From Hyphomicrobiaceae bacterium (lineage in GTDB: Bacteria; Pseudomonadota; Alphaproteobacteria; Rhizobiales; Hyphomicrobiaceae), in contig JAHDXT010000001.1 of assembly GCA_023384095.1 (NCBI GenBank), forward strand, positions 1-64,000: a stretch of 64,000 nt of DNA, read 5' to 3'. Positions 6,891 to 39,302 of the stretch are shown piece by piece. The notes beneath the pieces are model-generated. The model had not been told where the DNA came from, made no database searches, and was given only the letters and a program-made list of their open reading frames with translations. The first letter of the stretch is position 1. Each line of letters opens with the position of its first letter. The position numbers were made by a program, and so were the translations under genes.

Positions 6891-6901
6891 CGGGCGGCGG
6901 G

Positions 6902-7306: not shown

Positions 7307-7340
7307 CTCGAGTTTTCCGGTTCAGATGGAAACGTCCTGG

Positions 7341-7372
7341 TCCCCTCTCCATTGCAATGGGGAGAGTGGGAT
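7341..7372. terminator. Hairpin between convergent genes (CTCTCC/GGAGAG type)
   Basis: CTCTCCATTGC pairs with GCAATGGGGAGAG with one bulged G, in the short gap between the cytochrome gene (ending 7306) and the leftward hdeD-like gene (ending 7434). It could end transcription from both sides. It resembles the CCCTCTCC/GGAGAGGG hairpins near 47995, 52622 and 58341, so it may also be a copy of a dispersed repeat. Confidence 0.45.
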
Positions 7373-7433
7373 CTCGGGCAAATGGACCGTTTCGATTTCG
7401 ATCGGAAAGGCCACGGCCGCGCCGCGCGCCGAC

Positions 7434-8051: not shown

Positions 8052-8140
8052 GGCTCTGCTCCCATCGCTCTGCCGCCTGCAGTAACGCGCGAGCGGGGCG
8101 ATTGGTTTCCTCCCGAAGCATCAGCAGCTCGCAGTCAGGC

Positions 8141-9280: not shown

Positions 9281-9416
9281 TCCACCTCCGTCGCGAGAGG
9301 TCGGGTCCGGGCCGAGCCAGCGGGGTCGCATCGGAACGGCCGAATCGCGCCAGCGAGTTTGACGGAAGCGGGCGGCAGCGCCCAGTCCCGGAATTGCCGG
9401 CTGTGAATGACGACGG

Positions 9417-23364: not shown

Positions 23365-23781
23365 CTACCCGCGGTTGAGGATAGTCACGCGGCCTTCGGC
23401 CGGATCGATCTCGATCTCGTCGCCGGTGCGGATGAGCCTGGTCGGATCGCCGGCCTCGAAGCGGTCCACCAGCGTCAGATCGGCGAACGCGGCCCCCTGC
23501 GCCAGGATCGTGTTCGTCCGGTCGAAGACGATCGCCTTCGGCGCCAGCCCGCGCGAGGCCATCTCGTGCAGCATCCAGGCCGACGCGACCCCGCCCTTGG
23601 CGGTGACCAGCACCAGCACCTTGCCGACGTAGCTCTGGCCGTGGAGCTTGTGAGCCGGCCGCGAGAAGATGCCCTTCAGCCGGTCGAGATCGTAGCGGGC
23701 GGAGAAATTGTCATCCGCCACGAGCGCCGTGCCGGTGACCGCCGGTCCGATACCGCGATGGCATTTGAGCACGATCGGCAT
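23365..23781 (-). CDS. Aconitase X small (swivel) subunit, DUF126
   Basis: 138 aa. The swivelling domain of aconitase X, a separate chain in this two-subunit type. GTALVADDNFSARYDLD and GKVLVLVTAKGGVASAWMLHEM are the family signatures; the Ser of GGVAS closes on the substrate. The ATG at 23781 overlaps the large-subunit stop by one base (TGATG). It works only in complex with the large subunit. Last gene of the TRAP-AcnX operon. Confidence 0.9.
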   Translation of the reverse strand: MPIVLKCHRGIGPAVTGTALVADDNFSARYDLDRLKGIFSRPAHKLHGQSYVGKVLVLVTAKGGVASAWMLHEMASRGLAPKAIVFDRTNTILAQGAAFADLTLVDRFEAGDPTRLIRTGDEIEIDPAEGRVTILNRG

Positions 23782-25028
23782 CACAGGATCCTCCCCGCGA
23801 CAGCGCTGTCGACGCATCTCTCCATGCTGGCCAGCGTCGGCTTGTAGCCGTATCCGCCGATGATGTTGACGAGCTTGGCCGAGTTGGTCAGCAGCCGCGT
23901 CCAGCCGTTGGCCTCCGCCATCTCGCGCGCGTAGCTCTGGTAGAAGCACACGCCCGCGGCAACGATGCCGCCGGCGCCCTCGATGCGCTGCGTCAGGCCC
24001 ATGCGGTCGGCGGCGGACTTGATCTCGGGCGATGTGGCCACGATCAGCGACGTGCCCTCGCGGACGCGGCGGCCGTCGAGGAGATCGGCCACCTTCTGCA
24101 TTTCGAGCAGCGAGAGCTGCGGGGCGGCGAACACGACGACGTCGACCTTGTCGCCCTTGGCGTCATAGCCTGCATAGAACGCCGCGATGTCCTCGCCTGC
24201 GATCGCCGTCGGCTCCGGGACCGGGCGGCCCCCGAAAGCGGCCTCGGGAGTCGGCGCCTCGGGCGTGATGCCCGGCATGTGGAACAGTGCGACAGAGCCG
24301 AAGCTCGCCAGCGCCGCACCGAAGTGTTTCAGCTCGTCGGATGACGGTTGCTGCGCCAGCCCGGTGACGACCGGCACCTCCCAGTAGCTGTTGGTCGCCC
24401 GCCCGACGATGCCGCCGAGCGCGCCCCAGTCGGCGAGGCCCCGCGGCCGGCACCGGAGCGCGAAGTGGCGCGTGCCCGCGCGATGGACGTCGAGATGGAA
24501 GCCGTAGCGCGGGGTGCGCCCCGTCAGCCCCGCCGCCAGCGCGGACGGCCCGCCCTCGAAGTTGCTGCGCGCGCCGAGCACGCTGTTGGAGTAGATCACG
24601 ACCCCGGTGTCGCCGAAGGCCAGATGCTCGCCACGCACCGGCGGCAGGATGGTCTGGTAGTTGATGCAGGTGTTGGTCATCAGCACGCCGAGCGCCTCGA
24701 AGGCGCGGATGGCGCGCGCCTCGATCTCGGCCATCGCCTCGGTCTGCCGCAGGCGCTTGTAGGAGTTGAAGTCGAGCCCGCGCGGGTCGGTGATCGTCGG
24801 GATGCGCACGCGGCGCTGCTCGACGGGCTGTGCGGCGAGGCCTTCGAGCCAGCGGACTCCCGCTTCGCCCAGGCTCTCCGTGTCGGCCATGATGTGTGCC
24901 TGGCCGACCGGAACGAAGTCCGGCGCGTCGAAGAACTCGCCGACGGCGATCTGATGCCGGATCGCCCATTGCCGCACCGGCCCGGCCTCGCCCGCCAGCA
25001 TCGCTTGAGCTTCGTCGTCGAGTCTCAT
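23781..25028 (-). CDS. Aconitase X catalytic (large) subunit
   Basis: 415 aa dehydratase subunit. Three cysteines, Cys-121 (TNTCINYQ), Cys-361 (AGVCFYQ) and Cys-405 (MERCVDS), are placed to bind the iron-sulfur cluster of the family, and APQLSLLEM and NSAKLV are conserved. Known AcnX enzymes dehydrate cis-3-hydroxy-L-proline (bacteria) or mevalonate 5-phosphate (archaea). The first is the better guess here, but no pyrroline-2-carboxylate reductase is nearby, so an acid supplied by the adjoining TRAP importer is equally possible. The ATG at 25028 fixes the start; the frame stays open through dctM by chance. Confidence 0.9.
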   Translation of the reverse strand: MRLDDEAQAMLAGEAGPVRQWAIRHQIAVGEFFDAPDFVPVGQAHIMADTESLGEAGVRWLEGLAAQPVEQRRVRIPTITDPRGLDFNSYKRLRQTEAMAEIEARAIRAFEALGVLMTNTCINYQTILPPVRGEHLAFGDTGVVIYSNSVLGARSNFEGGPSALAAGLTGRTPRYGFHLDVHRAGTRHFALRCRPRGLADWGALGGIVGRATNSYWEVPVVTGLAQQPSSDELKHFGAALASFGSVALFHMPGITPEAPTPEAAFGGRPVPEPTAIAGEDIAAFYAGYDAKGDKVDVVVFAAPQLSLLEMQKVADLLDGRRVREGTSLIVATSPEIKSAADRMGLTQRIEGAGGIVAAGVCFYQSYAREMAEANGWTRLLTNSAKLVNIIGGYGYKPTLASMERCVDSAVAGRIL

Positions 25029-25063
25029 GGCTCGGCAATAATCCTTCCAGCAAAGCGCCGCGC

Positions 25064-26359
25064 TCACCGCATGGCGAGCTGATATCCCACGGTGGTCAGC
25101 CACGGCACCAGGATGAGGAGCATGGTGAAGGCCAGCAGCAGCCCGACCCATAGCAGTGCGGCCCTGCTGACCTTCTCGATCGGAACGTTGGACAGCGCCG
25201 AGGCGACGAACAGGTTCACCCCCAAGGGCGGGGTCAGGAAGCCCACTTCGCTCAGGACCACGAACAGGATGCCGAAGTGCACCGGATCGACGCCCAGCTT
25301 CATGACGGCGGGCAGGAAGATGGGCGTGAGCAGCACGATCGTGCTCAGCGTCTCCATGAACATTCCGACAATGACCAGGAGCAGCGAGATCATCACCAGG
25401 ACGAGGACCGGGTCCTGGGAGAGGCCGATGAAGGCGGTCGCGATCTGGTCCGGGATCTGGTAGAGCGTCAGCAGCTTCCCGAAGGCCATCGCCGGCCCCA
25501 TGATGATGAGCACTGCGCCGGTGAGCTTGCCGGTCGCGATCATCGAATCCATGATGTCGGGGAAAGAGAGCCGGCGCAGCAGGGCGCCGGCCGCCATGGC
25601 GTAGACGACGGCGAGCATGGAGGATTCCGTCGGGGTCGCCGCGCCGGTGTAGATCGAGCCGAGCACCACGAGAGGCATCAGCAGCGCCAGCTTCGCGTCC
25701 CACGCCGCCGCGGCGACCTTGCGGAGCGACAGCCCCTCGCCGGTCGCTCGATAGCCGCGCCGCATGCCGATCGCGAGGCAGGTCAGCGCGAGGATCAGCG
25801 TCAGCAGAAGCCCCGGCAGGACGCCGGCCGCGAACAGGCCGCGCACGGACACGTCCTTGGTCATCACGGCATAGACGATCATCGGGTTCGACGGCGGGAT
25901 CAGGATGCCGAGGGTGCCCCCCGTGGCCGCCACTGCGGCTGCGAACGGAGCCGGATAGCCGGCGCGCACCATGGTCGGGATCATCACCGCGCCGATGGCG
26001 GCGGTCGTGGCCGGGCCGGAGCCGGACAGCGAGGCGAAGAACGCGCACGACAGGATGGTGACTACGGCGAGGCCGCCCGGAACGTTGCCGACCAGGAGGT
26101 AGACGACGCGCACGATGCGGTCGGTCAGGCCGGTCCGCATCATGATCTCGCCGGCGAGGATGAAGCCCGGGATGGCGATGAGCGGGAACAGGCCGGCGCC
26201 GGTATAGAGCGTCTGCGCCATGTAGACGAGCGGGATCGGCGTGAGCAGCAGCCCGGCAAGGGCGGCGATGCCGAGGGAATAGCCCACCGGGATGCCGAGC
26301 AGGAGGGCCAGCCCCAGCGCGCCGAACACGATCAGCGTCATGTTGCTTTCGTCGAACAT
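25064..26359 (-). CDS. dctM: TRAP transporter large permease (DctM)
   Basis: 431 aa, about 12-13 hydrophobic segments. Ion-coupled uptake of a carboxylate with the DctP receptor and DctQ. Family marks include LLLGIPVGYSLG near the start, LSGSGPATTAAIG, GGTLGILIPPSNPMIVYA and PPLGVNLFV near the end. It follows dctQ by 16 nt and precedes aconitase X by 35 nt, tying the transported acid to the dehydratase. Confidence 0.95.
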   Translation of the reverse strand: MFDESNMTLIVFGALGLALLLGIPVGYSLGIAALAGLLLTPIPLVYMAQTLYTGAGLFPLIAIPGFILAGEIMMRTGLTDRIVRVVYLLVGNVPGGLAVVTILSCAFFASLSGSGPATTAAIGAVMIPTMVRAGYPAPFAAAVAATGGTLGILIPPSNPMIVYAVMTKDVSVRGLFAAGVLPGLLLTLILALTCLAIGMRRGYRATGEGLSLRKVAAAAWDAKLALLMPLVVLGSIYTGAATPTESSMLAVVYAMAAGALLRRLSFPDIMDSMIATGKLTGAVLIIMGPAMAFGKLLTLYQIPDQIATAFIGLSQDPVLVLVMISLLLVIVGMFMETLSTIVLLTPIFLPAVMKLGVDPVHFGILFVVLSEVGFLTPPLGVNLFVASALSNVPIEKVSRAALLWVGLLLAFTMLLILVPWLTTVGYQLAMR

Positions 26360-26375
26360 GCACGCGATCCGCCGG

Positions 26376-26885
26376 TTAGAGCTGGCGCCGCGCCGGATCC
26401 TCGTCCTCCGGCGGCGGGTTGACGTAGCTCTGCACGAGCCGCAGGCAGGTGAGCGCGAACGTCAGGGGTATGACGAGATAGATCCACTGCATCGGCACGC
26501 CGAGGGCGAGACTGGGCTCGGGTCGCTCGAGCGCCGAGCGCACCAGGAGCATGCCCTGCCACACGATGAACAGGTTGAATGCGAGCCAGACGAGGTCGCC
26601 GATGAGGAAACGCCAGCGGCGCAGCGGCGGGCGGATCCAGTCGAGATGCGCTGAGACGCGGAAGTGCGCTCCGTCACGGGTCGCGAGGACGGCGCCGAAG
26701 TAGAGCAGGAACACGAACGCGAAGATCGCCAGTTCCTCCGCCGTATGCGACAGCATCGTGAAAAAGGGATGGGTCACGAAATAGCGCACGACTGCCGAGT
26801 AGGTGAGCGCGGCGACGAGAGTCGTGCAGAGGACGACGACGATGACCTTCTCGAACCAGGCGTCGAGCCACTTCAGGATGCGCAC
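26376..26885 (-). CDS. dctQ: TRAP transporter small permease (DctQ)
   Basis: 169 aa with four predicted helices (VIVVVLCTTLVAAL, ELAIFAFVFLLYFG, LIGDLVWLAFNLFIVW, WIYLVIPLTFALTCLR), the usual DctQ layout. It carries no catalytic motif and forms the membrane complex with DctM. It is separated from dctP by 84 nt that contain a strong hairpin. Confidence 0.92.
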   Translation of the reverse strand: MRILKWLDAWFEKVIVVVLCTTLVAALTYSAVVRYFVTHPFFTMLSHTAEELAIFAFVFLLYFGAVLATRDGAHFRVSAHLDWIRPPLRRWRFLIGDLVWLAFNLFIVWQGMLLVRSALERPEPSLALGVPMQWIYLVIPLTFALTCLRLVQSYVNPPPEDEDPARRQL

Positions 26886-26921
26886 GCGTCAGCTCCGGGG
26901 CGGGGAGTGCGGTGGGAAGAA

Positions 26922-26942
26922 GCTCGCCCCGCGGGGGCGAGC
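26922..26942 (-). terminator. Intercistronic hairpin between dctP and dctQM
   Basis: Arms GCTCGCCCC at 26922-26930 and its complement at 26934-26942 with a 3-nt loop, right after the dctP stop. There is no T-tract. Such hairpins behind receptor genes usually cause partial termination or mRNA protection, so that more receptor than permease is made. Confidence 0.6.
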
Positions 26943-26969
26943 CCGCTTCCAATGCGAAACGACGGGGCG

Positions 26970-28001
26970 CTACTTGGCGTCCCTCACCTTCTTGATCCAA
27001 TCCTCGCCGATCTCCTTGCTGTACTTCTCGTAGACCGGCTTGACAGCTTCGACGAACGCGTTGCGATCGGCAACCATGTTCACCTTCACGCCGGTCTCCT
27101 GCAGGCGCTTCAAGCCGTCGAGGTGCGAAACCGCCGAGATCCAGCGCTGGTACTCGCCTGCTTCGTAGCCCGCCTGCAGAATCGCCTGCTGATGCTCCTT
27201 GGGCATGGCATCGAACGCCTTGTCGTTGATCAGCACGACGGCGAGCCCGTAGAAAATGTTGACGTAGGAATAGTTCTTCAGGAAATCGGTGAACTTCATG
27301 TCCAGCATGCCCTGCGGCGGTCCTTCGAGGCCGTCCGCGACGCCCTGCTGCAGGGCGCTGTAGAGCTCGCCCCAGTCGATGGCCGCGGGCGTGGCGCCGA
27401 GCGCACTGTAGGTGTCGAGCATGACCGCGTTCTTGGGCAGGCGGATCTTGACGCCCTTGAGGTCCTCCGGCTTGTTGATCGGCCGCACTTTGTTGATGAT
27501 CGAGCGGTCGCCCCATTCGAACACCGAGACGATGCGCACGCCCGACGCCTTGCGGTAGTTCTCGAACAGCTCCTTGCCGACCGCGCCGTTGACCACCGCA
27601 TTGGCGTGATGGCGGTCCCGGAAGATGAACGGCATGATCATGACATCGAGGGGCTTGTACCACATCGAAGCGTTGTTGATGGCGATGAGGGTGAGATCGA
27701 GCGTGCCGAGCTGGACGTCCTTGGCCGTGTTCTGCTCGAGCCCGAGCTGCGAGCTCGGGAACACTTTCACCCGGATGGCGCCGCGCGTGTACTGCTCGAC
27801 CAGCTCCGCGAAGCGGTGGGCGCCCGTGTCGTAGGGCATGCCCGGCGCCACGCCGTGGGCAAGGCGCATCGTCTTCTGGGGCTTCTCGATATAGGGGATC
27901 TCCTGCGCACGCGTATCGTGCGGCGCCAGGGCCAGCCCCGTGCCGAGCGCCAGACCGAGCAGCCCAGCCTTCATCAGGGCCCGTTTGGAGACGTAACTCA
28001 T
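26970..28001 (-). CDS. dctP: TRAP transporter substrate-binding protein (DctP)
   Basis: 343 aa, exported: positive start (KRALMKAG), Leu/Gly-rich core and a cut near DTRAQE at about 33. The mature protein has the DctP hallmarks LAHGVAPGMPYDTGAHRFAELV, VKVFPSSQLG, and an Arg in GVKIRLPKN that grips the ligand carboxylate. First gene of the leftward operon dctP-dctQ-dctM-acnX large-acnX small. Its promoter region overlaps the putative IclR operator at 28107-28126. Confidence 0.94.
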   Translation of the reverse strand: MSYVSKRALMKAGLLGLALGTGLALAPHDTRAQEIPYIEKPQKTMRLAHGVAPGMPYDTGAHRFAELVEQYTRGAIRVKVFPSSQLGLEQNTAKDVQLGTLDLTLIAINNASMWYKPLDVMIMPFIFRDRHHANAVVNGAVGKELFENYRKASGVRIVSVFEWGDRSIINKVRPINKPEDLKGVKIRLPKNAVMLDTYSALGATPAAIDWGELYSALQQGVADGLEGPPQGMLDMKFTDFLKNYSYVNIFYGLAVVLINDKAFDAMPKEHQQAILQAGYEAGEYQRWISAVSHLDGLKRLQETGVKVNMVADRNAFVEAVKPVYEKYSKEIGEDWIKKVRDAK

Positions 28002-28071: not shown

Positions 28072-28106
28072 GCGCCCGAAGCCGATCATTAGTTTGGCCA
28101 CGTGTC

Positions 28107-28126
28107 AATGGTTGAGACGCACCATT
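28107..28126. promoter_or_regulatory. Putative IclR operator in the divergent dctP/iclR region
   Basis: AATGGT-TGAGACGC-ACCATT, a perfect 6-bp inverted repeat with 8-bp spacer, ends 3 nt before the iclR ATG at 28130. Its left arm overlaps a TTGACA on the minus strand (28103-28108) that could be the -35 of dctP. One dimer here could control both operons and autoregulate iclR. IclR-family sites are often palindromes of about this size. Confidence 0.55.
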
Positions 28127-28129
28127 CCG

Positions 28130-28993
28130 ATGGATGAAACGCCTGAAACTGGCTCGTCGACGGAGCGCTCGTCGGTCGTGAAGGCGCTGAGGCTGCTTGC
28201 CGATGTCGCCGGCAGCCGCGAGCCGGTAGCGCTCGCCGAGCTCAGCCGCCGGCTGAAACTGCCCAAGCCCACGGCCTATCGCCTCGCCCGCGCGCTCGAG
28301 GGTTTCGGCTTCATCCAGAAGGATCCACTGACCCGGCGCTACGTGGTCGGCTCGGGGCTCGAAGAGGTCGCCCTCAATGCGCTGAAGCACGGCGCCGGAC
28401 ATCGTGCCCGCCGGCTGCTCATGAACGAGCTTGCCGAGCGGCTCGGGGCCCGGGTCAACCTGGTCATCCTGAAATCGGGCAATCTGTCGTTCGTGGAATG
28501 GGTCGAGTCGACGGCGCCCCTGCGCGTCGACATCCGAGGCGACCTGCCGATGCCGATCCACTGCAGCGCCAGCGGCAAGCTGCTGCTGGCCTTCGGCTCG
28601 CCGGCGCTGCGCGATGGCGTCATGCGCTCGGCTCCGTTCCGCGCCCACACGAAACACACGATCACGACGGCGAAAGAGCTGGAGCGGGAGCTGGCCAGGA
28701 TCTGCCGGCGCGGCCATTCCGAGGACAACCAGGAGCTGCTGCCGGGGGTCAACTGTCTTGCTGTGCCGATCCACAACCGCGCCGGGGATGTGGTCGCGGG
28801 CCTGGCCATCATGGCGCCGTCCGCGAGTCTGCCGCTGGAGGAGATGCGCCGGCGGCTGCCGGAGATCCGCGCCTGCGCGGAGCGGATCTCGGCCGACCTC
28901 AGGGCGCCGGCCGCCGCGGCGGGCAACGGTGCCGAGCCTCCCGCGCGGCAGGTCGCGAGGCGTACGGTTGGATCGCGAGCGACGGGCAGGTGA
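28130..28993 (+). CDS. IclR-family transcriptional regulator
   Basis: 287 aa. N-terminal winged helix at about 12-75 (SSVVKALRLLADVA, then LPKPTAYRLARALEGFGFI as recognition helix), C-terminal IclR ligand-binding domain with MPIHCSASGKLLLA and GVNCLAVPIHN. The ATG at 28130 is preferred; a TTG at 28094 would put the operator inside the gene. The stop lies 2 nt before the biotin-carrier ATG, so the regulator is first gene of the operon it probably controls. The effector is likely the imported acid or a CoA derivative. Confidence 0.93.
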   Translation: MDETPETGSSTERSSVVKALRLLADVAGSREPVALAELSRRLKLPKPTAYRLARALEGFGFIQKDPLTRRYVVGSGLEEVALNALKHGAGHRARRLLMNELAERLGARVNLVILKSGNLSFVEWVESTAPLRVDIRGDLPMPIHCSASGKLLLAFGSPALRDGVMRSAPFRAHTKHTITTAKELERELARICRRGHSEDNQELLPGVNCLAVPIHNRAGDVVAGLAIMAPSASLPLEEMRRRLPEIRACAERISADLRAPAAAAGNGAEPPARQVARRTVGSRATGR

Positions 28994-28995
28994 CC

Positions 28996-29472
28996 ATGGA
29001 GCTGACGTACAGCGACGTCGAGAACATCCTCAAGCTCGTGGACGGGGCGGAGCACCTCGACGAGATGGAGATCGTCTACAACGGCTTCCGCCTGCGGGTG
29101 GTGCGCGGGGCCGGGCCCGGCCTTTCCGTGCAGGGTCCCGTGCCGGCGCCGCCTGCCCCGGTCCCGCCGCCGGCGGCGCCCGCGGCTGCTGCGGGCACGA
29201 CGGCGGCGGCGATCGCTGACGGCATGACCGCGGTGCGCGCGCCGATGCTCGGCACGTTCTATCGCGCCCCGGCGCCGGGCGAGAAACCGTTCGTCGAGGT
29301 CGGCCAGCGAGTGCGCGCGGACGACACCGTCTGCCTGATCGAGGTGATGAAGCTGTTCAACTCCATCCGCGCCGGGGTCGACGGCACAGTGGTGGAGATC
29401 CTTACCGGCAACGGCGCGCTGGTGGAGCACGATCAGGTGCTGATCGTGATCGCGCCGGCCAAAGAGGACTAG
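28996..29472 (+). CDS. Biotin carboxyl carrier protein (AccB-like)
   Basis: 158 aa: N-terminal region like that of AccB (about 1-38), an Ala/Pro-rich swinging linker at about 45-75, and a biotinyl domain at about 78-155. The biotinylated lysine is Lys-119 in EVMKLFN. It carries CO2 from the biotin carboxylase encoded next to the carboxyltransferase, here most likely the one at 35230 in the same run of genes. An ordinary acetyl-CoA carboxylase accBC pair is the alternative, but the IclR start and catabolic neighbours argue against it. Confidence 0.93.
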   Translation: MELTYSDVENILKLVDGAEHLDEMEIVYNGFRLRVVRGAGPGLSVQGPVPAPPAPVPPPAAPAAAAGTTAAAIADGMTAVRAPMLGTFYRAPAPGEKPFVEVGQRVRADDTVCLIEVMKLFNSIRAGVDGTVVEILTGNGALVEHDQVLIVIAPAKED

Positions 29473-29479: not shown

Positions 29480-30874
29480 GTGCGGAGCCCGCCCTTTCAT
29501 CGTCTGCTCATCGCCAATCGTGGCGAGATCGCCGTGCGGGTGATCCGCGCCTGCGAGCAGCTCGGGATCGAGAGCGTCGTCGCCGTGTCGGAAGCCGATC
29601 GCGACAGCCTCGCCGCGCGGCTGGCCACGCGGGCAGTGTGCATCGGCCCGGCGGCTGCGCGAGAAAGCTATCTGAGGCCGGAGCTCCTCGTCGTCGCAGC
29701 CAAGGGCACCGGCTGCAGCGCGGTGCATCCGGGGTACGGCTTCCTGTCTGAGCGGGCGGAGTTCTCTCGCCTGTGCGCCGAGCACGGACTGACGTTCGTC
29801 GGACCATCTCCGGATGCGATCGCGGCGATGGGCGACAAGCTCGCCGCCGTCGGGCTCGCGACGGAGGCCGGCGTGCCGCGGGTCCCCGGGTCGGGCCGGA
29901 TCGGCAGCGCGGCCGAGGCTCGCGAGTTCGCGGCGCGGCACGGGTTTCCGCTGCTCATCAAGGCGAGCGCCGGCGGCGGCGGGCGCGGCATGCGCGTCGT
30001 GACGGCCGATGCGGAGCTCGGACGCGCCCTCGAGGCAGCGGCGGCGGAGGCACAGTCCGCGTTCGGCGATGCCTCCGTCTACGTCGAGAAGTTCATCGAG
30101 CGGGCGCGACACATCGAGGTCCAGGTGCTCGGCGACGCGCACGGCAACATCGTGCACCTCGGGGAGCGCGACTGCTCGACCCAGCGGCGCCACCAGAAGC
30201 TGATCGAGGAGGCGCCCTCGCCGGTGATCGACGATGGACTCCGCTCCGAGCTGGCGGCCGCGGCGGTACGGCTTGCAGAGCGCGTCGGTTACCAGGGCGC
30301 CGGCACCGTCGAGTATGTCCTCGACGAGGATACGCGCCGCTGGTTCTTCCTCGAGATGAACACCCGCATTCAGGTGGAGCATCCGGTTACCGAGATGATC
30401 ACGGGGCGCGACCTGGTGTGCGAGCAGATCCGCATCGCCGCCGGCGAGCCGGTCTCGTTCGCGCAGGAGGACGTGGCGTTCCAGGGGCACGCCATCGAGT
30501 GCCGCGTCAATGCCGAGGATGCATCGCGCAACTTCCTGCCGGGCCCGGGACGGCTCGACGAGTGGCGCCCGCCCGAGGGGCCGGGAATGCGCATCGATAC
30601 GCATTGCTATCCGGGCTACACCGTCCCGCCGTTCTACGATTCCCTGCTCGCCAAGGTCATCGCGCACGGGTCGACTCGCGCGCAGGCTGCCGCACGTATG
30701 CACGAGGCGCTCTTCCGTTTCAGGGTCGCCGGGATCGCGACGACGATCCCGTTTCACCTGGGTGTGCTTCAGCACCCGGATTTCCAGGACGGCCGCGTGA
30801 CCACCCGCTGGGTCGAGCAGACGTTTCTGCCGGAGATCAACAGCAGCCGGGCAGCAGTGGAGGCGGCGCAATGA
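29480..30874 (+). CDS. Biotin carboxylase subunit
   Basis: 464 aa. ATP-dependent carboxylation of biotin on the carrier. Opens with LIANRGEIAVRVIRA, then VHPGYGFLSE, the ATP-grasp Gly loop KASAGGGGRGM, ERDCSTQRRHQKLIEEAP, and the catalytic EMNTRIQVEHPVTE. It has no fused carrier domain. It begins with GTG 7 nt after the carrier gene and ends by overlapping the SDR start (ATGA). About 15 residues longer than E. coli AccC, only in the tail. Confidence 0.95.
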   Translation: MRSPPFHRLLIANRGEIAVRVIRACEQLGIESVVAVSEADRDSLAARLATRAVCIGPAAARESYLRPELLVVAAKGTGCSAVHPGYGFLSERAEFSRLCAEHGLTFVGPSPDAIAAMGDKLAAVGLATEAGVPRVPGSGRIGSAAEAREFAARHGFPLLIKASAGGGGRGMRVVTADAELGRALEAAAAEAQSAFGDASVYVEKFIERARHIEVQVLGDAHGNIVHLGERDCSTQRRHQKLIEEAPSPVIDDGLRSELAAAAVRLAERVGYQGAGTVEYVLDEDTRRWFFLEMNTRIQVEHPVTEMITGRDLVCEQIRIAAGEPVSFAQEDVAFQGHAIECRVNAEDASRNFLPGPGRLDEWRPPEGPGMRIDTHCYPGYTVPPFYDSLLAKVIAHGSTRAQAAARMHEALFRFRVAGIATTIPFHLGVLQHPDFQDGRVTTRWVEQTFLPEINSSRAAVEAAQ

Positions 30875-31635
30875 CATCCGGCTCGGGAACGCTGGCAGGG
30901 CGGATCGCCATCGTGACAGGCGGCGCGGCAGGACTGGGCAAGGCCATCGTCGAGGATCTGGCCCGCCGGAAGGCAGCGGTCCTCATCGCCGACCGGGATG
31001 CGGCGGCCGCGCGGCGCCTCGAGCAGCAGGTCGCGGCGGCCGGGCAGATCGCGACGGCGGTGGAAACGGACGTGACCGACCCCGCCTCTCTCGAGGCGAT
31101 GCTCGGCGCAGCCGTCGACCGCTTCGGGCGTGTCGACATGCTCGTCAACAATGCCGGGGTGCTCGGGCCGCTGCTGCCGCTGTGGGAGACCACCGACGCC
31201 GACGTCGCCCGCGTCTACGAGATCAACGTGCGCAGCGTATTCACCTGCACCCGCCTCGTCGCCCGCCACATGATGGAGCGCCGCTCCGGCGCCATCGTCA
31301 CCATCGCCTCGGTCGCCGGCAAGGATGGCCCCAGGAACGCGTCTATCTACGGCTCGTCCAAGGCGGCGGTGATCGGGTTAACGAAATCGTGGGGCAAGGA
31401 GCTGGCCCCCTATGGCGTGCGCGTGAACTGCGTGTCGCCGGCGCTGATCGAGGCGACCGGAATGCGCAGCGAGATGCCCGACGAGTACAGCAGCGATTCG
31501 GCGAGCCGGATCCCGCTCGGCCGCCTGGCGCGGGCGGAGGAGGTGGCCAGCATAGTCGCATTCCTGCTGTCGGACGAGGCGAGCTTCGTCACCGGCGCCT
31601 GCTATGATGCGAGCGGCGGGCGGGCCAGCTATTGA
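30871..31635 (+). CDS. SDR-family oxidoreductase (first of two)
   Basis: 254 aa. TGGAAGLG cofactor motif at about 17-24, NNAG, IASVAG with catalytic Ser, and YGSSK. Asp after strand 2 (IADRD) favours NAD(H). It overlaps biotin carboxylase by 4 nt (ATGA) and so belongs to the IclR-linked operon. It could oxidise a hydroxy acid or hydroxyacyl intermediate. The C-terminal end (YDASGGRASY) departs from the common VDGG. Confidence 0.92.
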   Translation: MTSGSGTLAGRIAIVTGGAAGLGKAIVEDLARRKAAVLIADRDAAAARRLEQQVAAAGQIATAVETDVTDPASLEAMLGAAVDRFGRVDMLVNNAGVLGPLLPLWETTDADVARVYEINVRSVFTCTRLVARHMMERRSGAIVTIASVAGKDGPRNASIYGSSKAAVIGLTKSWGKELAPYGVRVNCVSPALIEATGMRSEMPDEYSSDSASRIPLGRLARAEEVASIVAFLLSDEASFVTGACYDASGGRASY

Positions 31636-31651: not shown

Positions 31652-32449
31652 ATGAGCGAAGCGACGACCGCCCTGCCCACAGCCGAAAGCGTAAGGAAGC
31701 TGCACGACCTCTCAGGCCGGATCGCGCTGGTGACCGGCGCGGGGTCCGGCCTCGGACGCACCATGGCCTGGGGACTGGCCTGCCACGGCGCAGACCTGGC
31801 CGTCGTCGACCGCGACATCGGGCTGGCCCGCAGGTGCGCGGAAGAGATCGCGGGCGGCAGCGGGCGCCGGGCGCTCGCGATCGAAGCCGACGTCAGCGAG
31901 GAGGGCGACGTCTCGCGCGCCGTGGCTGGCGCGCTGGCCGAGCTCGGCCGCATCGACGTGCTCGTCAACAATGCCGGCCACAACATCCGCAAGCCGCTGA
32001 TCGAGTACACGTGCGCGGAGTTCGATTCGCTCTATGCCGTGCACGTGCGCGGCACGTTCCTGTTCAGCAGGGCCGCCGTCACTCACATGCGCGCGCGCAG
32101 GTCGGGTTCGATCATCAACATCGCCTCCATCCTCGGACACGTCGCCGCTCGCAACGTGGCGCCCTATGCCGCAGCCAAGGGGGCGATCATCCAGATGACG
32201 CGGGTGCTGGCCCTCGAGCTCGCTGCCGACGGCATCCGGGTCAACGCGCTGGCGCCGGGATATATCGACACGCCGCTCACCCGCCAGCATGCCCCGGAAG
32301 TGCGCCGGCAGATCACCTCGACCGCGCCGCTCGGCCGCTTCGGTGAGCCGGGCGAGCTGATCGGCCCGGCCGTGTTCCTCGCTTCGGATGCGGCGAGCTT
32401 CGTCACCGGGGCCTCGCTGATCGTCGACGGAGGCTGGACAGCGCAATGA
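31652..32449 (+). CDS. SDR-family oxidoreductase (second of two)
   Basis: 265 aa. TGAGSGLG, VVDRD (NAD-type), NNAGHNIRKP, IASILG and YAAAK, then the FabG-like end FVTGASLIVDGGW. The ATG at 31652 has GGAGGCGAG upstream. The NAG-HNIRK segment recalls gluconate 5-dehydrogenase-type and KduD-type enzymes acting on hydroxy or sugar acids; that is only a hint. It shares its last 4 bases with the ABC permease start. Confidence 0.92.
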   Translation: MSEATTALPTAESVRKLHDLSGRIALVTGAGSGLGRTMAWGLACHGADLAVVDRDIGLARRCAEEIAGGSGRRALAIEADVSEEGDVSRAVAGALAELGRIDVLVNNAGHNIRKPLIEYTCAEFDSLYAVHVRGTFLFSRAAVTHMRARRSGSIINIASILGHVAARNVAPYAAAKGAIIQMTRVLALELAADGIRVNALAPGYIDTPLTRQHAPEVRRQITSTAPLGRFGEPGELIGPAVFLASDAASFVTGASLIVDGGWTAQ

Positions 32450-33306
32450 GCCGGAGCACGAAAGAACCGCACTCGGAGCTGGCGGCGCAACTCGGGTCCC
32501 GGCAAGGGCCGGAACCTGCTGCGAGCGCACTGAGGGCCGGCATGCTGACCATGGTCTGGAACCTCGCCTCCCTCGCGCTCGCACTCGCGCTGTGGCAGCT
32601 CGCGTCGGTGCTCGCCGCGTCACCGTTCTTCCCAGGGCCGATGAAAATCGTCGAGGCGTTCGTGCAGCTCGCCTCGCGCGGCGACACGTTCGGGCATTCG
32701 CTGTGGACGCATTCCTGGGCGAGCATCGAGCGCGTGCTGGTCGGCTTCGGGCTCGGCGTCCTCCTCGGCGTTCCCCTCGGTCTGCTGATGGGGCTCTATC
32801 CGAAGGTCTACGCCGGCACGCGGTCGGTCCTGGAGCCGTTCCGCTTCATCCCGCCGATCGCGTGGATCCCGCTCGCCATCATCTTCTTCTCCGGGCTGAC
32901 CCGGTTCGCGTTCCTGATCTTCCTCGGCGCCTTCTTCCCCGTCTTCACCTCGACGCTCGTCGGGGTGGCCCGGGTCGAGCCGATCCACCGCAAGGTCGGA
33001 GTCGTGCACGGCGCCGGCAAGCTGTGGACGCTCGTCCATGTCGTCGTGCCGACTGTGATGCCGGATATCATGGCAGGCATGCGCGTCGGCCTCGGGACGG
33101 CCTGGCTGACGATCGTCGCGGCCGAGCTCGCCGGCGGCATTTCCACCGGGCTCGGCCGCATGATGACCAACTACGCGGAGCTGTTGCAGGTGCCGCACGT
33201 GATCGTCGGCATGCTGCTCATCGGCTTCATCGGGTTCGTCATGAACGAGATGCTGCTGATCGTCGAGAAGCGGCTGTTCCGCTGGCGCTGGCAGGTCAGC
33301 CTCTAA
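32446..33306 (+). CDS. ABC transporter permease (SsuC/TauC type)
   Basis: 286 aa with about six membrane helices. The inner-membrane half of a nitrate/sulfonate/taurine-type importer. The EAA-like coupling loop is around KVGVVHGAGKLWTLVHVVVP (EAA-Gly pattern with the conserved Gly), and the C-terminal motif is AGGISTGLGRMM. Starts within the SDR stop (ATGA) and precedes the ATPase and receptor. Confidence 0.93.
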   Translation: MSRSTKEPHSELAAQLGSRQGPEPAASALRAGMLTMVWNLASLALALALWQLASVLAASPFFPGPMKIVEAFVQLASRGDTFGHSLWTHSWASIERVLVGFGLGVLLGVPLGLLMGLYPKVYAGTRSVLEPFRFIPPIAWIPLAIIFFSGLTRFAFLIFLGAFFPVFTSTLVGVARVEPIHRKVGVVHGAGKLWTLVHVVVPTVMPDIMAGMRVGLGTAWLTIVAAELAGGISTGLGRMMTNYAELLQVPHVIVGMLLIGFIGFVMNEMLLIVEKRLFRWRWQVSL

Positions 33307-33319: not shown

Positions 33320-34087
33320 TTGCAACGGCAGATGCAGACGGGCGGCAGCGCCAAGGTCGACGTCGATGCCACCCACCGTTACGGCGATCTCGTCGTGCAC
33401 GATCAGCTCCGCTTCTCGGTGGCGGAGAACGAGTTCCTGTGCATCTGCGGCCCCTCGGGCTGCGGCAAGACCACCCTGCTCGACATGCTCGCCGGCATTC
33501 TCGAGCCGTCCGAGGGCAGGGTCCTCATCGACGGCGCGCCCGCCGACCCCAAGCGGCAGAGCATCTCGTTCGTCTTCCAGGAGCCGTCGACGTTCCCGTG
33601 GCTCAACGTGTGGGACAACGTCGCGACCGGTCTGCGCATCCGGGGCACGCCGCGCGAAGCGATCGCCGCCAAGGTGGAGGAGATCGTCCGCATCGTCGGC
33701 CTCACCGGATTCGAGAAGTTCTATCCGCACCAGATCTCGGGCGGCATGAAGCAGCGCGTGGCCATCGCGCGCGCATTCGTGACGGATGCCGACCTCATCC
33801 TCATGGACGAGCCGTTCGTCAGCCTCGACCAGCCCACGCGCGAGCGCATGCAGGCCGAGGTGCTCGACATCTGGCGCCACAGGCGGCGCACCGTGGTCTT
33901 CGTGACGCACAATCTCGAGGAGGCGGTCTACCTCGGCGACCGCATCCTCATCCTCTCCGCCAAGCCGGCGCGCATCGTCGCCGAGCTCGACGTGTCGCTC
34001 GCGCGGCCGCGCGACCCGCTCTCGAAGGAGTTCATGGAGCTGCGCGCCAGCTGCGTGCGCTGGCTGCACGCGCCTGGAACCGTTTGA
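33320..34087 (+). CDS. ABC transporter ATP-binding protein (SsuB/TauB type)
   Basis: 255 aa. Walker [11 protein letters not shown]-loop [12 protein letters not shown], signature [14 protein letters not shown], Walker B LILMDEPF and the switch His in THNLEEAV. The TTG at 33320 fits best because AAGGAGGGCGG at 33305-33315 is at proper spacing; the ATG at 33332 would be about 20 nt away. It energises uptake through the preceding permease. Confidence 0.94.
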
Positions 34088-34162: not shown

Positions 34163-35164
34163 ATGAGGACGAAACGCAGACTGCTCAAGCAATTGGTGGC
34201 GTCGGCGCTGCTGCCGGCCCTGCTGGCGGCGGTGCCCATAGCCGGCGCCGAGGCCCAAAGTCTGACGACCGTGCGCCTTGCCGACCAGAACGGGTCGGAG
34301 GTCGACTATGCCGCCGTCTGGGTCGCGGAGCTCAACGGCTATTTCGCGGAGGAAGGCATCAAGATCGAGCGCAAGACTTATGCGAACGGCCCTGCCTCGC
34401 TGCTCGACTTCAATAACCTCGATGCGGTCATGGCCGCCATCGTGCCCTTCATGCAGTACGCAGCGCGCGGCGGCGACATGCGCATCGTCCTCTCGCTGAC
34501 CAAGGGCAACGCTCCGATCATCGGCAAGAAGGAATACAAGTCGGTCAAGGACCTCGACGGCAAGAAGGTCGGGACCCCCGGCATCGGCACGATCCACGAC
34601 GCGGTGCTCGGCTACATCCAAAGCTCGCAGGGGCTGAAGTTCCAGCACATCCCCGCGAAGATCACCGACGTCGCCGTGATGATACAGAAAGGCGAGGTCG
34701 AAGCCTTCATCGGCTGGGAGCCGGCCTCAGCCGCTGCCGTCGCGCTGGCGCCCGATCTGCTCCACTACATCCAGCGCATGCCGCCGATCCCGAACTCGGA
34801 AAGCCTCGAGCTCGCGTTCAAGACGAGCTACGTCAAGGAGAATCCCGAGACGGTCGAGAAATTCGTGCGCGCGACGCTGCGCGCCATCGAGTGGATGAAG
34901 GCGAACGGCAACGAGAAGACGGCCGAGCTGATCGCCAGGAAAATGAACGACCCCAAAGCCAAACCGATCAACCTCGACGCGCTGCAGTCCGTGGATCTCA
35001 CGCAGCCGCGCATCGACATGCCCTCGACGCGCATCTGGCTCACCACGATCGCCCAGCAGGGCAAGATCCCGGCGGAGCTCGTCAAGGACGTCGACGGCTG
35101 GGTCGGCAAGTACATCGACTATTCCTTCCTCGACAAGGCCGAGGCCTCGCTGAAGAAGAAGTGA
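34163..35164 (+). CDS. ABC substrate-binding protein (NMT1/SsuA-like)
   Basis: 333 aa, exported (KRRLLKQ, then a Leu/Ala core and a cut after GAEAQ at about 32). The NMT1/SsuA-like fold is visible in VWVAELNGYFAEEGI, LDGKKVGTPGIGTIHDAVL and GEVEAFIGWEP. Ligands in this family are sulfonates, nitriles, pyrimidine precursors or aromatic acids. With the biotin carboxylase and SDRs around it, it gives the operon its own uptake route besides the divergent TRAP system. Confidence 0.93.
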   Translation: MRTKRRLLKQLVASALLPALLAAVPIAGAEAQSLTTVRLADQNGSEVDYAAVWVAELNGYFAEEGIKIERKTYANGPASLLDFNNLDAVMAAIVPFMQYAARGGDMRIVLSLTKGNAPIIGKKEYKSVKDLDGKKVGTPGIGTIHDAVLGYIQSSQGLKFQHIPAKITDVAVMIQKGEVEAFIGWEPASAAAVALAPDLLHYIQRMPPIPNSESLELAFKTSYVKENPETVEKFVRATLRAIEWMKANGNEKTAELIARKMNDPKAKPINLDALQSVDLTQPRIDMPSTRIWLTTIAQQGKIPAELVKDVDGWVGKYIDYSFLDKAEASLKKK

Positions 35165-35229: not shown

Positions 35230-36669
35230 ATGCGCGAAATTCCTGTCGTCGATACCACCTTGCGAGACGCTCACCAGTGCCTGTGGGCGACGCGCATGAC
35301 CACGGCGCACATGCTGCCCATCGCCGAACGCATGGACAGGATCGGCTTTCAGCGCATCGATCTCGCCGGCACCATCCAGTTCGACGTCTGCATCCGCTAT
35401 CTCAAGGAGAACCCCTGGGAGCGGATAAGGCTCATGCGCGAGCGGATCAAGGACACCCCTCTCAGCTCCTTCACGCGCTCGAAGAACCTCGTCAGCTTCG
35501 ACGTCCTGCCCGACGACATCGTCGGCCTGTGGGTGGAACGGCTGGTCGCCAACGGCTTCCGGGAGGTGGGCACGTTCGACGGCCTCAACGACATCGACAA
35601 CATGATGGTCACGCTCGACGTGGCCCGCGGACTGGGCGTCAAGATGTTCGGCGCCCTCTCCTACAGCCTGTCGCCGGTCCACACCGACGAGCTCTACGTC
35701 GACACCGCGCGCGAGCTGGTGCGGCGCGGCAAGGTCGACGCCATCTGGCTCAAGGACGCCGGCGGCCTGTTGACCATCGATCGCATCCGCACGCTGGTGC
35801 CGGCGATCAAGAAGGTGATCGGTGCGATTCCGCTCGAGCTGCACAGCCACTGCATGACTGGCTTGGCCCCGCTCGTGTACCTGGAGGGGATCAAGGCGGG
35901 CGCGGACCGCATCCACTCCTCGATCGCGCCGCTGGCCAATGGCAATGCGCAGCCCGCCACGCAGTCGATGGCGCGCAACCTGCGGGGGCTCGGCTATGCG
36001 GTGAGCGTCGACGACGGCCTGATCGAGGAGGTCGGTGAGCACTTCCGCAAGATCGCGGAAGAGGAAGGCAAGCCGCTCGGCACGCCGCAGGAGTACGACG
36101 CGTTCCACTACGAGCACCAGGTGCCCGGCGGGATGATGTCGAACTTCCGCTCGCAGCTCGCCCAGGCGGGCCTGTCGCACCTCATGCAGCGGCTGCTCGA
36201 GGAGTGCGCCCGCGTGCGCACCGAGCTCGGCTATCCGATCATGATCACGCCGTTCGCCCAGCTCGTCGGCACCCAGGCCGTGCTCAACGTCGTCCAGGGC
36301 GAGCGCTACAAGACGGTGCCCGACGAGGTGAAGAAGTACGCGCTCGGCTACTACGGCAGGCTGCTGGCGCCGGTGGAGCCGTCGGTGCTCGACCGCATCG
36401 TAGAGAACGGATCGCCGTCGATCGCATTGCGCCCGCAGCCGCTCGCGCCGGCCGTCGAGAAGCTGCGGCGGCAGTACTCCGGCGCCAGTGACGACGAGCG
36501 CATTCTGCGCTTCATGTTCGCCGGCCAGCAGGTCGACGAGATGATGGCCGCGGGTCCGACCAGGACCGAGCATACGTTCGAGAAGCCGCTCGTGCGGCTT
36601 GTGCGCGAGCTGTCGCAGCGCAAGATCACCCGGGTCCACTTCTCGACACTGCCGCAGCACGCTGCGTAA
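35230..36669 (+). CDS. Divergent biotin-dependent carboxyltransferase (pyruvate carboxylase B / 5S-like)
   Basis: 479 aa: TIM-barrel carboxyltransferase (about 1-290) and the PYC_OADA tail (about 300-460), no carrier domain. Kept are DTTLRDAHQ with metal Asp-13 and substrate-type Arg-12 and Gln-16, metal ligands His-205 and His-207, and the carboxylated Lys-175 (WLKDAGG). Changed are the RG(Q/A)N loop, which reads RSKN at 83-86, and the catalytic Thr of GTSQP, which reads NAQP (Asn-239). So the substrate is probably not pyruvate. With the carrier and carboxylase at 28996-30874 it completes a three-subunit enzyme. Confidence 0.88.
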   Translation: MREIPVVDTTLRDAHQCLWATRMTTAHMLPIAERMDRIGFQRIDLAGTIQFDVCIRYLKENPWERIRLMRERIKDTPLSSFTRSKNLVSFDVLPDDIVGLWVERLVANGFREVGTFDGLNDIDNMMVTLDVARGLGVKMFGALSYSLSPVHTDELYVDTARELVRRGKVDAIWLKDAGGLLTIDRIRTLVPAIKKVIGAIPLELHSHCMTGLAPLVYLEGIKAGADRIHSSIAPLANGNAQPATQSMARNLRGLGYAVSVDDGLIEEVGEHFRKIAEEEGKPLGTPQEYDAFHYEHQVPGGMMSNFRSQLAQAGLSHLMQRLLEECARVRTELGYPIMITPFAQLVGTQAVLNVVQGERYKTVPDEVKKYALGYYGRLLAPVEPSVLDRIVENGSPSIALRPQPLAPAVEKLRRQYSGASDDERILRFMFAGQQVDEMMAAGPTRTEHTFEKPLVRLVRELSQRKITRVHFSTLPQHAA

Positions 36670-36685: not shown

Positions 36686-38317
36686 ATGGAAGGGGACTGG
36701 GACTACATCGTGATTGGCGCCGGATCGGCCGGCTGCGTCCTTGCCAACCGGCTGTCGGCGGACGAGCGCACGCGCGTGCTGCTTCTGGAAGCCGGCGGCA
36801 ACGACCGCTACATCTGGATCCACGTCCCGGTCGGCTACTTCAAGACGATGCACAACCCGCGGACCGACTGGATGTTCAGGACGGAGCCCTGTCCCGGGCT
36901 CGGCGGCCGGCGGCTCGACTGGCCGCGCGGCAAGGTGCTCGGCGGGTCGAGCGCGATCAACGGCCTGCTCTATATCCGCGGGCATCGCTCTGATTTCGAT
37001 CACTGGCGCCAGCTCGGCTGCGCCGGCTGGAGCTTCGAGGACGTGCTGCCCTACTTCCGGCGCGCCGAGGACCAGGAGCGCGGAGCCGACGATCTGCACG
37101 GAAGCGGCGGCCCGCTCGGCGTCAGCGACATGCGCATCGAGCGGGAGATCTGCCGGCGCTTCATCGATGCGGCGGCGGAAGCCGGCGTTCCGCGCAACGA
37201 CGACTTCAACGGTCACGTGCAGGACGGAGCGGGCTACTTCCAGCTCACGACCCGCAACGGCCTGCGCTGCTCGACTGGGGTCGGGTACTTGAAGCCAGCG
37301 CGGCGGCGACAGAACCTTCACGTCGCCACGAAAGCCCACAGCAAGCGCATCACGCTCGAGAACGGCCGCGCCACCGGCGTCGTCTACGCGCAGGGCGGGC
37401 GCGACCGGCTCGCCCGCGCCAGGGGCGAGGTGATCCTCGCCGCCGGCGCGATCGGCTCGCCGCAAATCCTGATGCTGTCGGGCGTCGGGCCGGCCGGGCT
37501 CCTGCAGTCCCTCGGGATCGGCGTCATCCATGCTCTGGACGGCGTCGGCCGCAACCTGCAGGATCACCTGCAGGTGCGGACGGTGTTCAAGCTCAATCGG
37601 AGGCTCAGCGTCAACGACGAGGTGCGCAATGTCTTCGGACGGGCGCTCGCCGGCATCGAATTCCTGCTGACGAGACGCGGCGCGCTGTCGATGGGCGCCA
37701 GCCAGGCCTGCGCCTTCGTGCGCACGCGCCCCGGCCTGGAAGCGCCCGACGTTCAGTTCCATGTGCAGCCGCTCAGCACCGACAAGCTCGGAGCGGGCCT
37801 GCACGATTTCTCGGGCCTGACCATGTCGACCTGCCAGCTCCGGCCGGAAAGCCGCGGCGAGATCCTGCTCGCGAGCCCGGATCCGTTCGATCACCCGGCC
37901 ATCCACCCGAATTATCTCGCGACGGAGACGGACCGGCAGACGCAGATTGCCGGCATGCGCTTCGCGCGCCGGATCGGCCGCGCCGCACCGCTGGCCGAGG
38001 TGATCGCCTCGGAGCACCTGCCCGGGACCCATGTGCAGACCGACGAGGAGCTGCTCGATGCCGCCCGGAACATCTCGCAGACGATCTACCATCCGGTCGG
38101 CACCTGCAAGATGGGCCAGGATGCGAACGCCGTCGTCGACGACCGTCTTCGCGTGCATGGCATCGGCGGCCTGCGCGTCGTCGATGCCTCCATCATGCCG
38201 ACACTGACTTCGGGCAACACCAACGCGCCGACGATCATGATCGCGGAGAAGGCGTCCGACATGATCCGCGACGACGCCCGCGCCGTGCGGCCGCCGGCGG
38301 CGGCACGCGTCGCCTGA
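36686..38317 (+). CDS. GMC-family FAD-dependent oxidoreductase (choline dehydrogenase-like)
   Basis: 543 aa. Oxidises an alcohol to aldehyde or ketone. FAD fold [16 protein letters not shown] at the start, [14 protein letters not shown], the second GMC signature [15 protein letters not shown], and the catalytic His in [10 protein letters not shown] with the final [23 protein letters not shown] region. The ATG at 36686 has AAAGGAG 11 nt upstream. Sixteen nucleotides after the carboxyltransferase, so in the same operon. A hydroxyl-bearing substrate is implied. Confidence 0.93.
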
Positions 38318-38414: not shown

Positions 38415-39302
38415 ATGAAGCCGACCATCCTGACGTGCGCGGTGACGGGCAACTTCCCGACGCGGGAGCAGAACCCGAATCTGCCGGTCACGCCCGCGGA
38501 GATCGCGGACCAGTGCCTCGGAGCCGTGAAGGCCGGGGCCGCCGTCTGCCACATCCACGTCCGCGAGCCCGCGACCGGGCGCCCGAGCATGAAGCTCGAG
38601 TACTACCGCGAGGTCGTCGAGCGGCTGCGCACGAGCGGCGTCGATCTCGTCATAAACCTGACGACCGGGCCGGGCGGGCGCTTCATGCCGAGCGACGACG
38701 AGCCGGCCAAGGCGGCGCCCGGCACGATGCTGACGACGCCCGAGATCCGCACCGAGCATGTCGTCGAGCTGAAGCCCGAGCTGTGCAGTCTCGACCTCAA
38801 CACGATGTGGTTCGGCGGCGGCGCCGTGATCAACTCGCCGCGCAACATCCGCATCATGGCGGAGCGCATGTATGCGGCCGGCGTCAAGCCGGAGCTCGAG
38901 GTGTTCGACACGGGCGACATCATGCTCGCCCACGACCTGTTCGCGGACGGCACCCTGCGCGCTCCCGCCCTGTTCCAGGTCGTCACCGGCGTCAAGTACG
39001 GCATGGCCGCCACGTCCGAGACGATGTGCTACGCCAAGTCGCTGCTGCCGAAGGGCTGCGAGTGGGCGGCGTTCGGGGCCGGCCGCATGGCCTTCCCGAT
39101 GCTGGCGCAGGCGTTCGTGCTCGGCGGGCACTGCCGGATCGGCATGGAGGATACCGTGCACCTGGCGCGGGGCGTGCCGGCTCCGGACAACGCTGCCCTG
39201 GTCGAGAAGGCGGTGCGCATCATCGACAATCTCGGCGGCAAGGTGGCGAGCGTGGCCGAAGCGCGCCAGATCCTCGGTCTCGCCGAGCGCCGCGCCGGCT
39301 GA
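38415..39302 (+). CDS. Beta-keto acid cleavage enzyme (BKACE, DUF849)
   Basis: 295 aa zinc enzyme. The BKACE family condenses a beta-keto acid with acetyl-CoA and splits it to acetoacetate and a CoA ester. Visible are the zinc pair in [36 protein letters not shown] and the C-terminal [11 protein letters not shown]. The best-known member acts on 3-keto-5-aminohexanoate in lysine fermentation; most others have other keto acids. Here the keto acid may be made by the SDR or GMC enzymes and the carboxylase just upstream. Last gene of the rightward run. Confidence 0.93.

Follow-up and report, generated by a model that had tools for sequence, protein, structure and literature searches.

A locus in a Hyphomicrobiaceae genome raises the question of which acceptor is carboxylated by a biotin-dependent carboxyltransferase (CT) whose pyruvate-site residues are altered. 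The window, meaning the whole 64,000-nucleotide stretch of DNA that was analyzed, carries the CT gene as an open reading frame that opens with ATG (Table 1). The encoded protein scores 110 bits for Pfam PYC_OADA and 44 bits for HMGL-like, both above the cut-offs, and its AlphaFold model (pLDDT 89.4, pTM 0.87) finds its best PDB matches in 5ks8, 2nx9, and 1rqb, with TM values of 0.83–0.86. This model supports the fold only. Judged by domain content and predicted structure, the protein qualifies as a member of the PYC/OadA-type carboxyltransferase superfamily that combines an HMGL-like barrel with PYC_OADA. The OadA/5S equivalog cut-offs are all missed (oadA, 412 bits against 756; PRK12331, 387 against 718; PRK12330, 289 against 827).

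The CT was aligned with the CT domain of Rhizobium etli pyruvate carboxylase (RePC; the 2qf7 sequence, in which the chain number minus 11 gives the native number), with 2nx9, 5ks8, and 1rqb, and with ∼120 homologues. Asp13, Lys175, His205, and His207 align with RePC Asp549, Lys718, His747, and His749, as the original prediction had stated. The metal site is thus present in the aligned sequence, with Lys175 probably carbamylated. Arg12, Gln16, Arg83, and Asn86 align with Arg548, Gln552, Arg621, and Asn624, respectively. The predicted RSKN loop and Asn-239 can both be read in the sequence. The loop said to hold pyruvate is altered only in part, since G622 and A/Q623 are replaced by S84 and K85, whereas the Arg itself is kept, as is the Asn. 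Among 20 homologues with 47–86% identity to the window CT, Arg83, Ser84, Asp13, His205, His207, and Thr340 are invariant and Lys175 is conserved in at least 90%. Because of this conservation, the Arg and Ser of RSKN and the metal residues are neither error nor noise.

Asn-239 had been taken to replace the catalytic Thr of GTSQP and thereby to change proton transfer. The first claim is wrong, and the second is not supported. RePC has Thr781 in GNTSQP, whereas Thr882, which has been termed catalytically essential (PMC5895798), is the T of VTPSSK, and pyruvate carboxylase numbering is a trap in this respect. In the window CT, Thr-340 (in MITPFAQLVGT) aligns with Thr882 and is conserved, so that loss of the catalytic Thr is ruled out. 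At the Asn-239 column, RePC has Thr781, and the solved PycB (5ks8), OadA (2nx9), and 5S (1rqb) have Ala, Tyr, and Pro, respectively. Since this column varies among solved relatives, Asn-239 is silent on proton transfer.

Other positions, which the original prediction did not list, also depart from RePC. WGGATFD is replaced by AGTIQFD (residues 46–52), Y628 by F90, M720 by A177, D750 by C208, S884 by F342, and S885 by A343. Relatives of the window CT commonly have Phe for Tyr628 (Trp in the Xcc/Hpe group), Phe (occasionally Leu or Tyr) for Ser/Thr884, and an AGTIQFD-like motif for WGGATFD, and most have Ala, Pro, or Ser for Met720. WGGAT(F/Y)D, Tyr628, and Met720 are present in every one of the nine pyruvate-side references, two of which have Leu at 884. 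Where these references read WGGAT(F/Y)D, RG(Q/A)N with Tyr628, and KDM, the window CT reads AGTIQFD, RSKN with Phe90, and KDA. No proven pyruvate or oxaloacetate enzyme with RSKN was found among the nine; the NAQP half of the signature originally proposed is void because its column is variable.

A scan of 84,980 species for CT homologues yielded 78 loci; L numbers below denote loci from this and other searches. The nearest CTs (82%–86% identity) come from Hyphomicrobiaceae and other, mostly alphaproteobacterial, MAGs and from Hyphomicrobium sp. CS1BSMeth3. Relatives with 47%–80% identity are found in Betaproteobacteria, Pseudomonas, Variovorax, Paenibacillus, actinobacteria, and others. Two trees were built, a careful one of 56 rows and a quick one of 86 rows, and their topologies agree; nine references represent the pyruvate side, and CfiA (2-oxoglutarate carboxylase) and the actual HpeCBA/AcvCDE sequences are not among the rows. 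A long branch with 100/100 support divides pyruvate carboxylase, PycB, OadA, and 5S from the window CT and the Xcc/Hpe group. The window CT therefore lies outside the clade of the pyruvate/oxaloacetate enzymes sampled by these references. Its side of the branch comprises four groups: its own, an RGQS group, a Rhodococcus/Novosphingobium RSN group, and Xcc/Hpe. The window CT is also outside the Xcc/Hpe clade, as the two form separate supported groups and RSKN stands in place of TGxRF. Divergent bacterial members of the CT family with no function assigned have already been noted by Lombard and Moreira (PMC3199775).

The same genome encodes a second CT (G000 contig C85:1382-2794, L133) that belongs to the RGQS group and is 48% identical to the window CT; a BCCP gene adjoins it at the contig end. 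A search of 98 further Microbacterium-order genomes found no Xcc/Hpe-type CT at E ≤ 1e-100, and no plasmid with a near copy of the window operon was found.

The CT gene lies within a run of genes on one strand (Table 1). Gaps between these genes are short or negative, and co-transcription is therefore likely. BCCP, biotin carboxylase (BC), and CT are encoded by three separate ORFs, as in Xcc/Hpe.

Table 1. Genes of the window operon and the CT residues discussed in the text
Feature	Coordinates	Strand	Evidence
IclR-family regulator, first operon gene, ORF start uncertain	28094..28993	+	Pfam HTH_IclR, IclR_C
BCCP, biotin site EVMKL	28996..29472	+	Pfam Biotin_lipoyl; NCBIfam TIGR00531 over cut-off
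Biotin carboxylase (BC), AccC type	29480..30874	+	Pfam Biotin_carb_N/CPSase_L_D2/Biotin_carb_C; TIGR00514 635 bits, over cut-off
Short-chain dehydrogenase 1	30871..31635	+	Pfam adh_short_C2
Short-chain dehydrogenase 2, start uncertain (ORF opens 31604)	31652..32449	+	Pfam adh_short_C2
ABC importer permease, taurine/sulfonate type	32446..33306	+	Pfam BPD_transp_1; NCBIfam TauC/SsuC-like, below equivalog cut-offs
ABC importer ATPase	33320..34087	+	Pfam ABC_tran; NCBIfam taurine/SaoA-like, below equivalog cut-offs
ABC importer binding protein, NMT1/SsuA family	34163..35164	+	Pfam NMT1; SsuA_fam 88 bits, below cut-off
CT subunit, 479 aa	35230..36669	+	Pfam PYC_OADA, HMGL-like; AlphaFold; tree
RSKN loop, residues 83-86; Arg83 = RePC Arg621 (kept)	35476..35487	+	Alignment
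Asn-239 = RePC Thr781 position (variable; not catalytic Thr)	35944..35946	+	Alignment
Thr-340 = RePC Thr882, essential Thr (kept)	36247..36249	+	Alignment; invariant in 20 homologues
GMC oxidoreductase, choline-dehydrogenase-like, probable alcohol dehydrogenase	36686..38317	+	Pfam GMC_oxred_N/C; PRK02106 subfamily over, betA equivalog below cut-off
DUF849/BKACE enzyme, BsfD-like branch	38415..39302	+	Pfam BKACE 314.7 bits; alignment and tree with 9zsc

Parts of this arrangement recur at homologous loci. An IclR-type gene of ∼300 aa also precedes the BCCP gene in L011, L013, L014, L015, L019, L046, L051, and L055, and an ABC permease stands beside the CT in L011–L015, L019, L046, L051, L055, and L057. 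Relatives of the GMC oxidoreductase occur in L016, L053, L057, and L111, and BioY or bioA genes are found near homologous carboxylases. Upstream of the operon, on the opposite strand (window positions 23365–28001), is a divergent set comprising a TRAP transporter (DctP, DctQ, DctM) and aconitase X (AcnX; catalytic part ∼23784–25028, swivel domain 23365–23949). AcnX may feed the CT pathway, since it recurs near the CT in L024, L052, and L054.

Among known systems, the phosphophenylethanone carboxylases HpeCBA, XccBCA, and AcvCDE resemble the window system in having separate BCCP, BC, and CT subunits, and the 100/100 branch leaves their CTs together with the window CT. HpeCBA carboxylates 4-phospho-acetophenone and 4-phospho-acetovanillone to β-keto acids (PMC9618137). 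In Xcc/Hpe systems, the product is used by a ligase, thiolase, or hydrolase for β-keto acids, and one member cluster, that of S. bisphenolicum, includes a BKACE. Their CTs are ∼39%–42% identical to the window CT and carry TGxRF, in which Arg621 is lost, whereas the window CT carries RSKN. Xcc/Hpe clusters also contain a HAD phosphatase gene together with a gene for a kinase or Tm-1-like protein. The 7 kb around the window CT hold neither, and the window operon has an ABC importer and a GMC dehydrogenase. L148 serves as the anchor of the Xcc/Hpe group; its gene order is acsA-like, Tm-1-like, BC, CT, HAD phosphatase, pchF-like, SDRs, and thiolase. This order fits the xcc cluster of Aromatoleum aromaticum EbN1, a homologue of HpeCBA, and L148 is probably that cluster. 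When PMC9618137 Table 1 is set against L096 and L148, gene order and subunit mass (49.3 and 57.4 kDa) suggest that the carboxyltransferase may be HpeA and not HpeB; the paper may have swapped the CT and biotin carboxylase labels.

PycB (5ks8) and OadA (2nx9) resemble the window CT in fold, metal site, and the Thr882 equivalent (35%–40% identity). In contrast, they fall on the other side of the tree, and their WGGATFD, Tyr628, Met720, and Ser/Thr884 are all changed in the window CT. The barrel and catalytic residues are likewise shared with 5S (1rqb) and the pyruvate carboxylase CT domain (2qf7), which differ in tree position and gene context and whose equivalog scores the window CT is far from reaching.

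Modules for β-keto acids recur beside homologous CTs, judging from the automatic gene calls in the fetched loci. Within 7 kb of the CT, an AMP-forming ligase, often with a thiolase, is present in Pseudomonas, Variovorax, and Rhodococcus; acsA with or without a thiolase is found in Xcc/Hpe; and CoA-transferase A/B plus a thiolase occur in Paenibacillus, Pseudogracilibacillus, and Cnuibacter. A recognized module is absent at many betaproteobacterial MAG loci. BKACE is encoded in the CT operon in the window, L011, and L017 of the window's group. In the RGQS group, it adjoins the CT in L062, L064, and L136 and lies within ∼7 kb of it in L135. Three BKACE-seeded loci (L110, L111, L113) also have a CT adjoining. 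In genome G303 the genes are split over two contigs, with BCCP-BC-BKACE-ABC at an end of one (L117) and AcnX with a CT of 67% identity at the end of the other (L024).

Most homologous CT loci are without BKACE, or the genome carries it elsewhere. Of seven genomes with a CT of at least 82% identity, five have a BKACE orthologue with at least 78% identity, even where it is unlinked to that CT, and none of 198 other genomes of the order has one (best 74%); these counts come from related genomes and do not represent independent events. The original prediction proposed a phylogeny to see whether the CT forms its own clade, always linked to BKACE. A separate, supported group does exist, but strict linkage is ruled out, and the CT–BKACE link is recurrent, not universal. 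We found no paper that links BKACE with a biotin ketone carboxylase in a search that was thin on subscription journals.

One locus of the Xcc/Hpe group, L093, lies on plasmid pBAR1 of Sphingomonas bisphenolicum (5067–11357). Its genes run BKACE, Tm-1-like (UPF0261), BCCP, BC, CT, and HAD phosphatase, and BKACE stands where Xcc/Hpe clusters have acsA. This exchange in a clade with chemistry proven for homologues is the strongest indirect argument that the window CT is part of a ketone carboxylase. The strain is known for bisphenol A degradation, and its genes likely specify a 4-hydroxyacetophenone route that uses BKACE instead of acsA.

The window BKACE has the Zn ligands His46, His48, and Glu245 and does not reach the curated BKACE equivalogs (3-oxoadipate, 179 bits against 350; KCE, 239 against 382). 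It groups with BsfD (9zsc; support 100/98), with which it shares 55% identity, the Zn ligands, and a long loop in which Arg89 aligns with BsfD Arg91. The substrate of BsfD is 3-oxo-4-phosphonobutyrate, with Arg91 near the phosphonate, and the enzyme transfers the acetyl group instead of cleaving (PMC12871164). Unlike the window BKACE, BsfD belongs to the flavophos (phosphonate) biosynthesis cluster, where no carboxylase is among the genes that the paper describes. Phe164 of the window BKACE occupies the position of the catalytic Tyr145 of CcaKce, as in BsfD, and Phe is also found in L062, L093, L135, L136, and 3c6c. Phe164 is ruled out as proof of BsfD-like chemistry, since L136, which is over the 3-oxoadipate cut-off, has it as well. 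The four RGQS-group BKACEs found via their CTs (L062, L064, L135, L136) all pass the 3-oxoadipate:acetyl-CoA acetyltransferase equivalog (455–470 bits against 350). Levulinate is the first candidate acceptor for this group because its carboxylation would give 3-oxoadipate, and our guess from these sequences is that the RGQS-group enzyme is a biotin-dependent levulinate carboxylase.

We consider it fairly probable that the window CT works in a ketone carboxylase of three subunits (BCCP, BC, CT) that depends on biotin and ATP and supplies its β-keto acid product to the downstream BKACE. The locus and its relatives display the gene content, the conserved catalytic residues, the tree position, and the recurrent β-keto-acid modules described above. 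A ketone as the acceptor in general, the order of steps, and product use by BKACE are what we infer for the route. The ABC importer would bring the substrate in, and the SDR and GMC dehydrogenases would turn it into a ketone. BC would then carboxylate biotin on BCCP, and the CT barrel, with its metal site and Thr-340 as proton shuttle, would move the carboxyl group to the ketone α-carbon. The resulting β-keto acid would be used with acetyl-CoA by the DUF849/BKACE enzyme. The earlier expectation that the enzyme still carboxylates, with a different acceptor, is supported by the 100/100 tree split, by the changes at Tyr628, Met720, and Ser/Thr884, and by the β-keto-acid genes in operons of this family. 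Several findings speak against this explanation. Arg621, which is lost in Xcc/Hpe, is kept in the window CT and would also suit a 2-oxo acid, and BsfD, the closest solved BKACE relative, transfers acetyl instead of cleaving. Most homologous loci have no BKACE, many betaproteobacterial MAG loci have no recognized β-keto-acid module, and the genome has no canonical PC, PEPC, or ICL.

The retained Arg83, together with Gln16, would suit an enzyme that carboxylates another 2-oxo acid (e.g., 2-oxobutyrate or 2-oxoglutarate) to a 2-oxo-3-carboxy acid. A related enzyme type, 2-oxoglutarate carboxylase, exists. However, the Tyr628, Met720, and WGG motif common to all nine pyruvate-side references are changed, and the BKACE, ligase-plus-thiolase, and CoA-transferase modules fit the kind of product that ketones would give, a β-keto acid whose carboxyl is free, which leaves this alternative doubtful. 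The CT could instead be a drifted PycA/PycB-like anaplerotic pyruvate carboxylase of the organism, with a separate BCCP. The CT does pass PRK09282, a generic domain model named "pyruvate carboxylase subunit B" (450.8 bits against a cut-off of 402), Arg621 and Thr882 are kept, and family searches of the genome found no canonical PC, PEPC, or ICL. Yet PEPCK is present, and the CT is separated from the pyruvate enzymes by the 100/100 branch, with Y628, M720, and WGGATFD changed throughout its group. Moreover, the operon has a catabolic make-up (importer, dehydrogenases, BKACE), and among the order's 199 genomes, its own included, just four have any CT of the window side at E ≤ 1e-120, unlike a housekeeping gene. 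The anaplerotic role is therefore unlikely, though still a live rival. Homology to OadA and 5S would also allow a decarboxylase or transcarboxylase that removes the carboxyl group from a β-keto acid. This is highly improbable, given the missed OadA/5S cut-offs, the ATP-spending biotin carboxylase in the same operon, and the lack of an OadB/OadG-like membrane subunit among the operon genes; the last two points led us to reject an OadA-like decarboxylase.

If a ketone is the acceptor, its identity can be proposed only as speculation. An anionic methyl ketone bearing a sulfonate or phosphonate is suggested by the sulfonate-type importer, the kept Arg83, and the grouping of the BKACE with BsfD, whose Arg it retains. 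More broadly, and just as tentatively, a large unrecognized superclade of biotin-dependent ketone carboxylases may exist under the annotation "pyruvate carboxylase subunit B." Its window branch would carboxylate an imported anionic methyl ketone, such as a sulfonate- or phosphonate-bearing acetone, to a 4-substituted acetoacetate for a BsfD-like DUF849 enzyme, with no CoA ligase needed. If true, a biotin ketone carboxylase acting with BKACE would provide a ligase-free path from ketone to acyl-CoA. NCBIfam and plasmid records label such CTs pyruvate carboxylase subunit B or similar, so that for many bacteria of soil and groundwater a metabolic reconstruction would show anaplerosis in place of a possible ketone catabolic route. 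For this CT family and for BKACEs without a known substrate, a panel of ketones, and not only 2-oxo acids, becomes a direct test.

Sulfonate catabolism is weak as an established theme, since the sulfatase, histidinol-dehydrogenase-like, and TPP-enzyme clues are all absent from the window operon. In L012, L057, and L063, which represent three distant lineages, the CT has sulfatase and histidinol-dehydrogenase-like genes as neighbors, a hint of sulfated or sulfonated substrates. Near L053 is a gene for a TPP enzyme that resembles sulfoacetaldehyde acetyltransferase but scores below the cut-off for it.

Several relatives show altered metal sites. One CT branch (L058, L059, L061, L063, L066, L070, L018, and L045 [second CT]) has Glu in place of the Lys carbamylated in pyruvate carboxylase, in IEDASG, LEDASG, or IEDPSG, and this Glu may stand in for the carbamate. 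In the RSN group (L004, L005, L006, L131), Lys718 is replaced by Tyr and the second metal His by Asn, which may indicate a changed metal site or another chemistry; a thiolase gene adjoins L005, L006, and L131. Tandem CT paralogues follow BCCP and BC in L067–L069, L071–L075, L077–L082, L084, L086, and L087 (Pseudomonas, Variovorax, Burkholderia, Paraburkholderia). Their losses are complementary: One paralogue has Gly or Ala for Lys718 and is without the first His, and the other has Arg for the Lys and is without the second His. Together, the two may build one mixed active site. Near these paralogues are a gene for a CoA ligase and, often, genes for a thiolase and a ChsH2-like OB protein.
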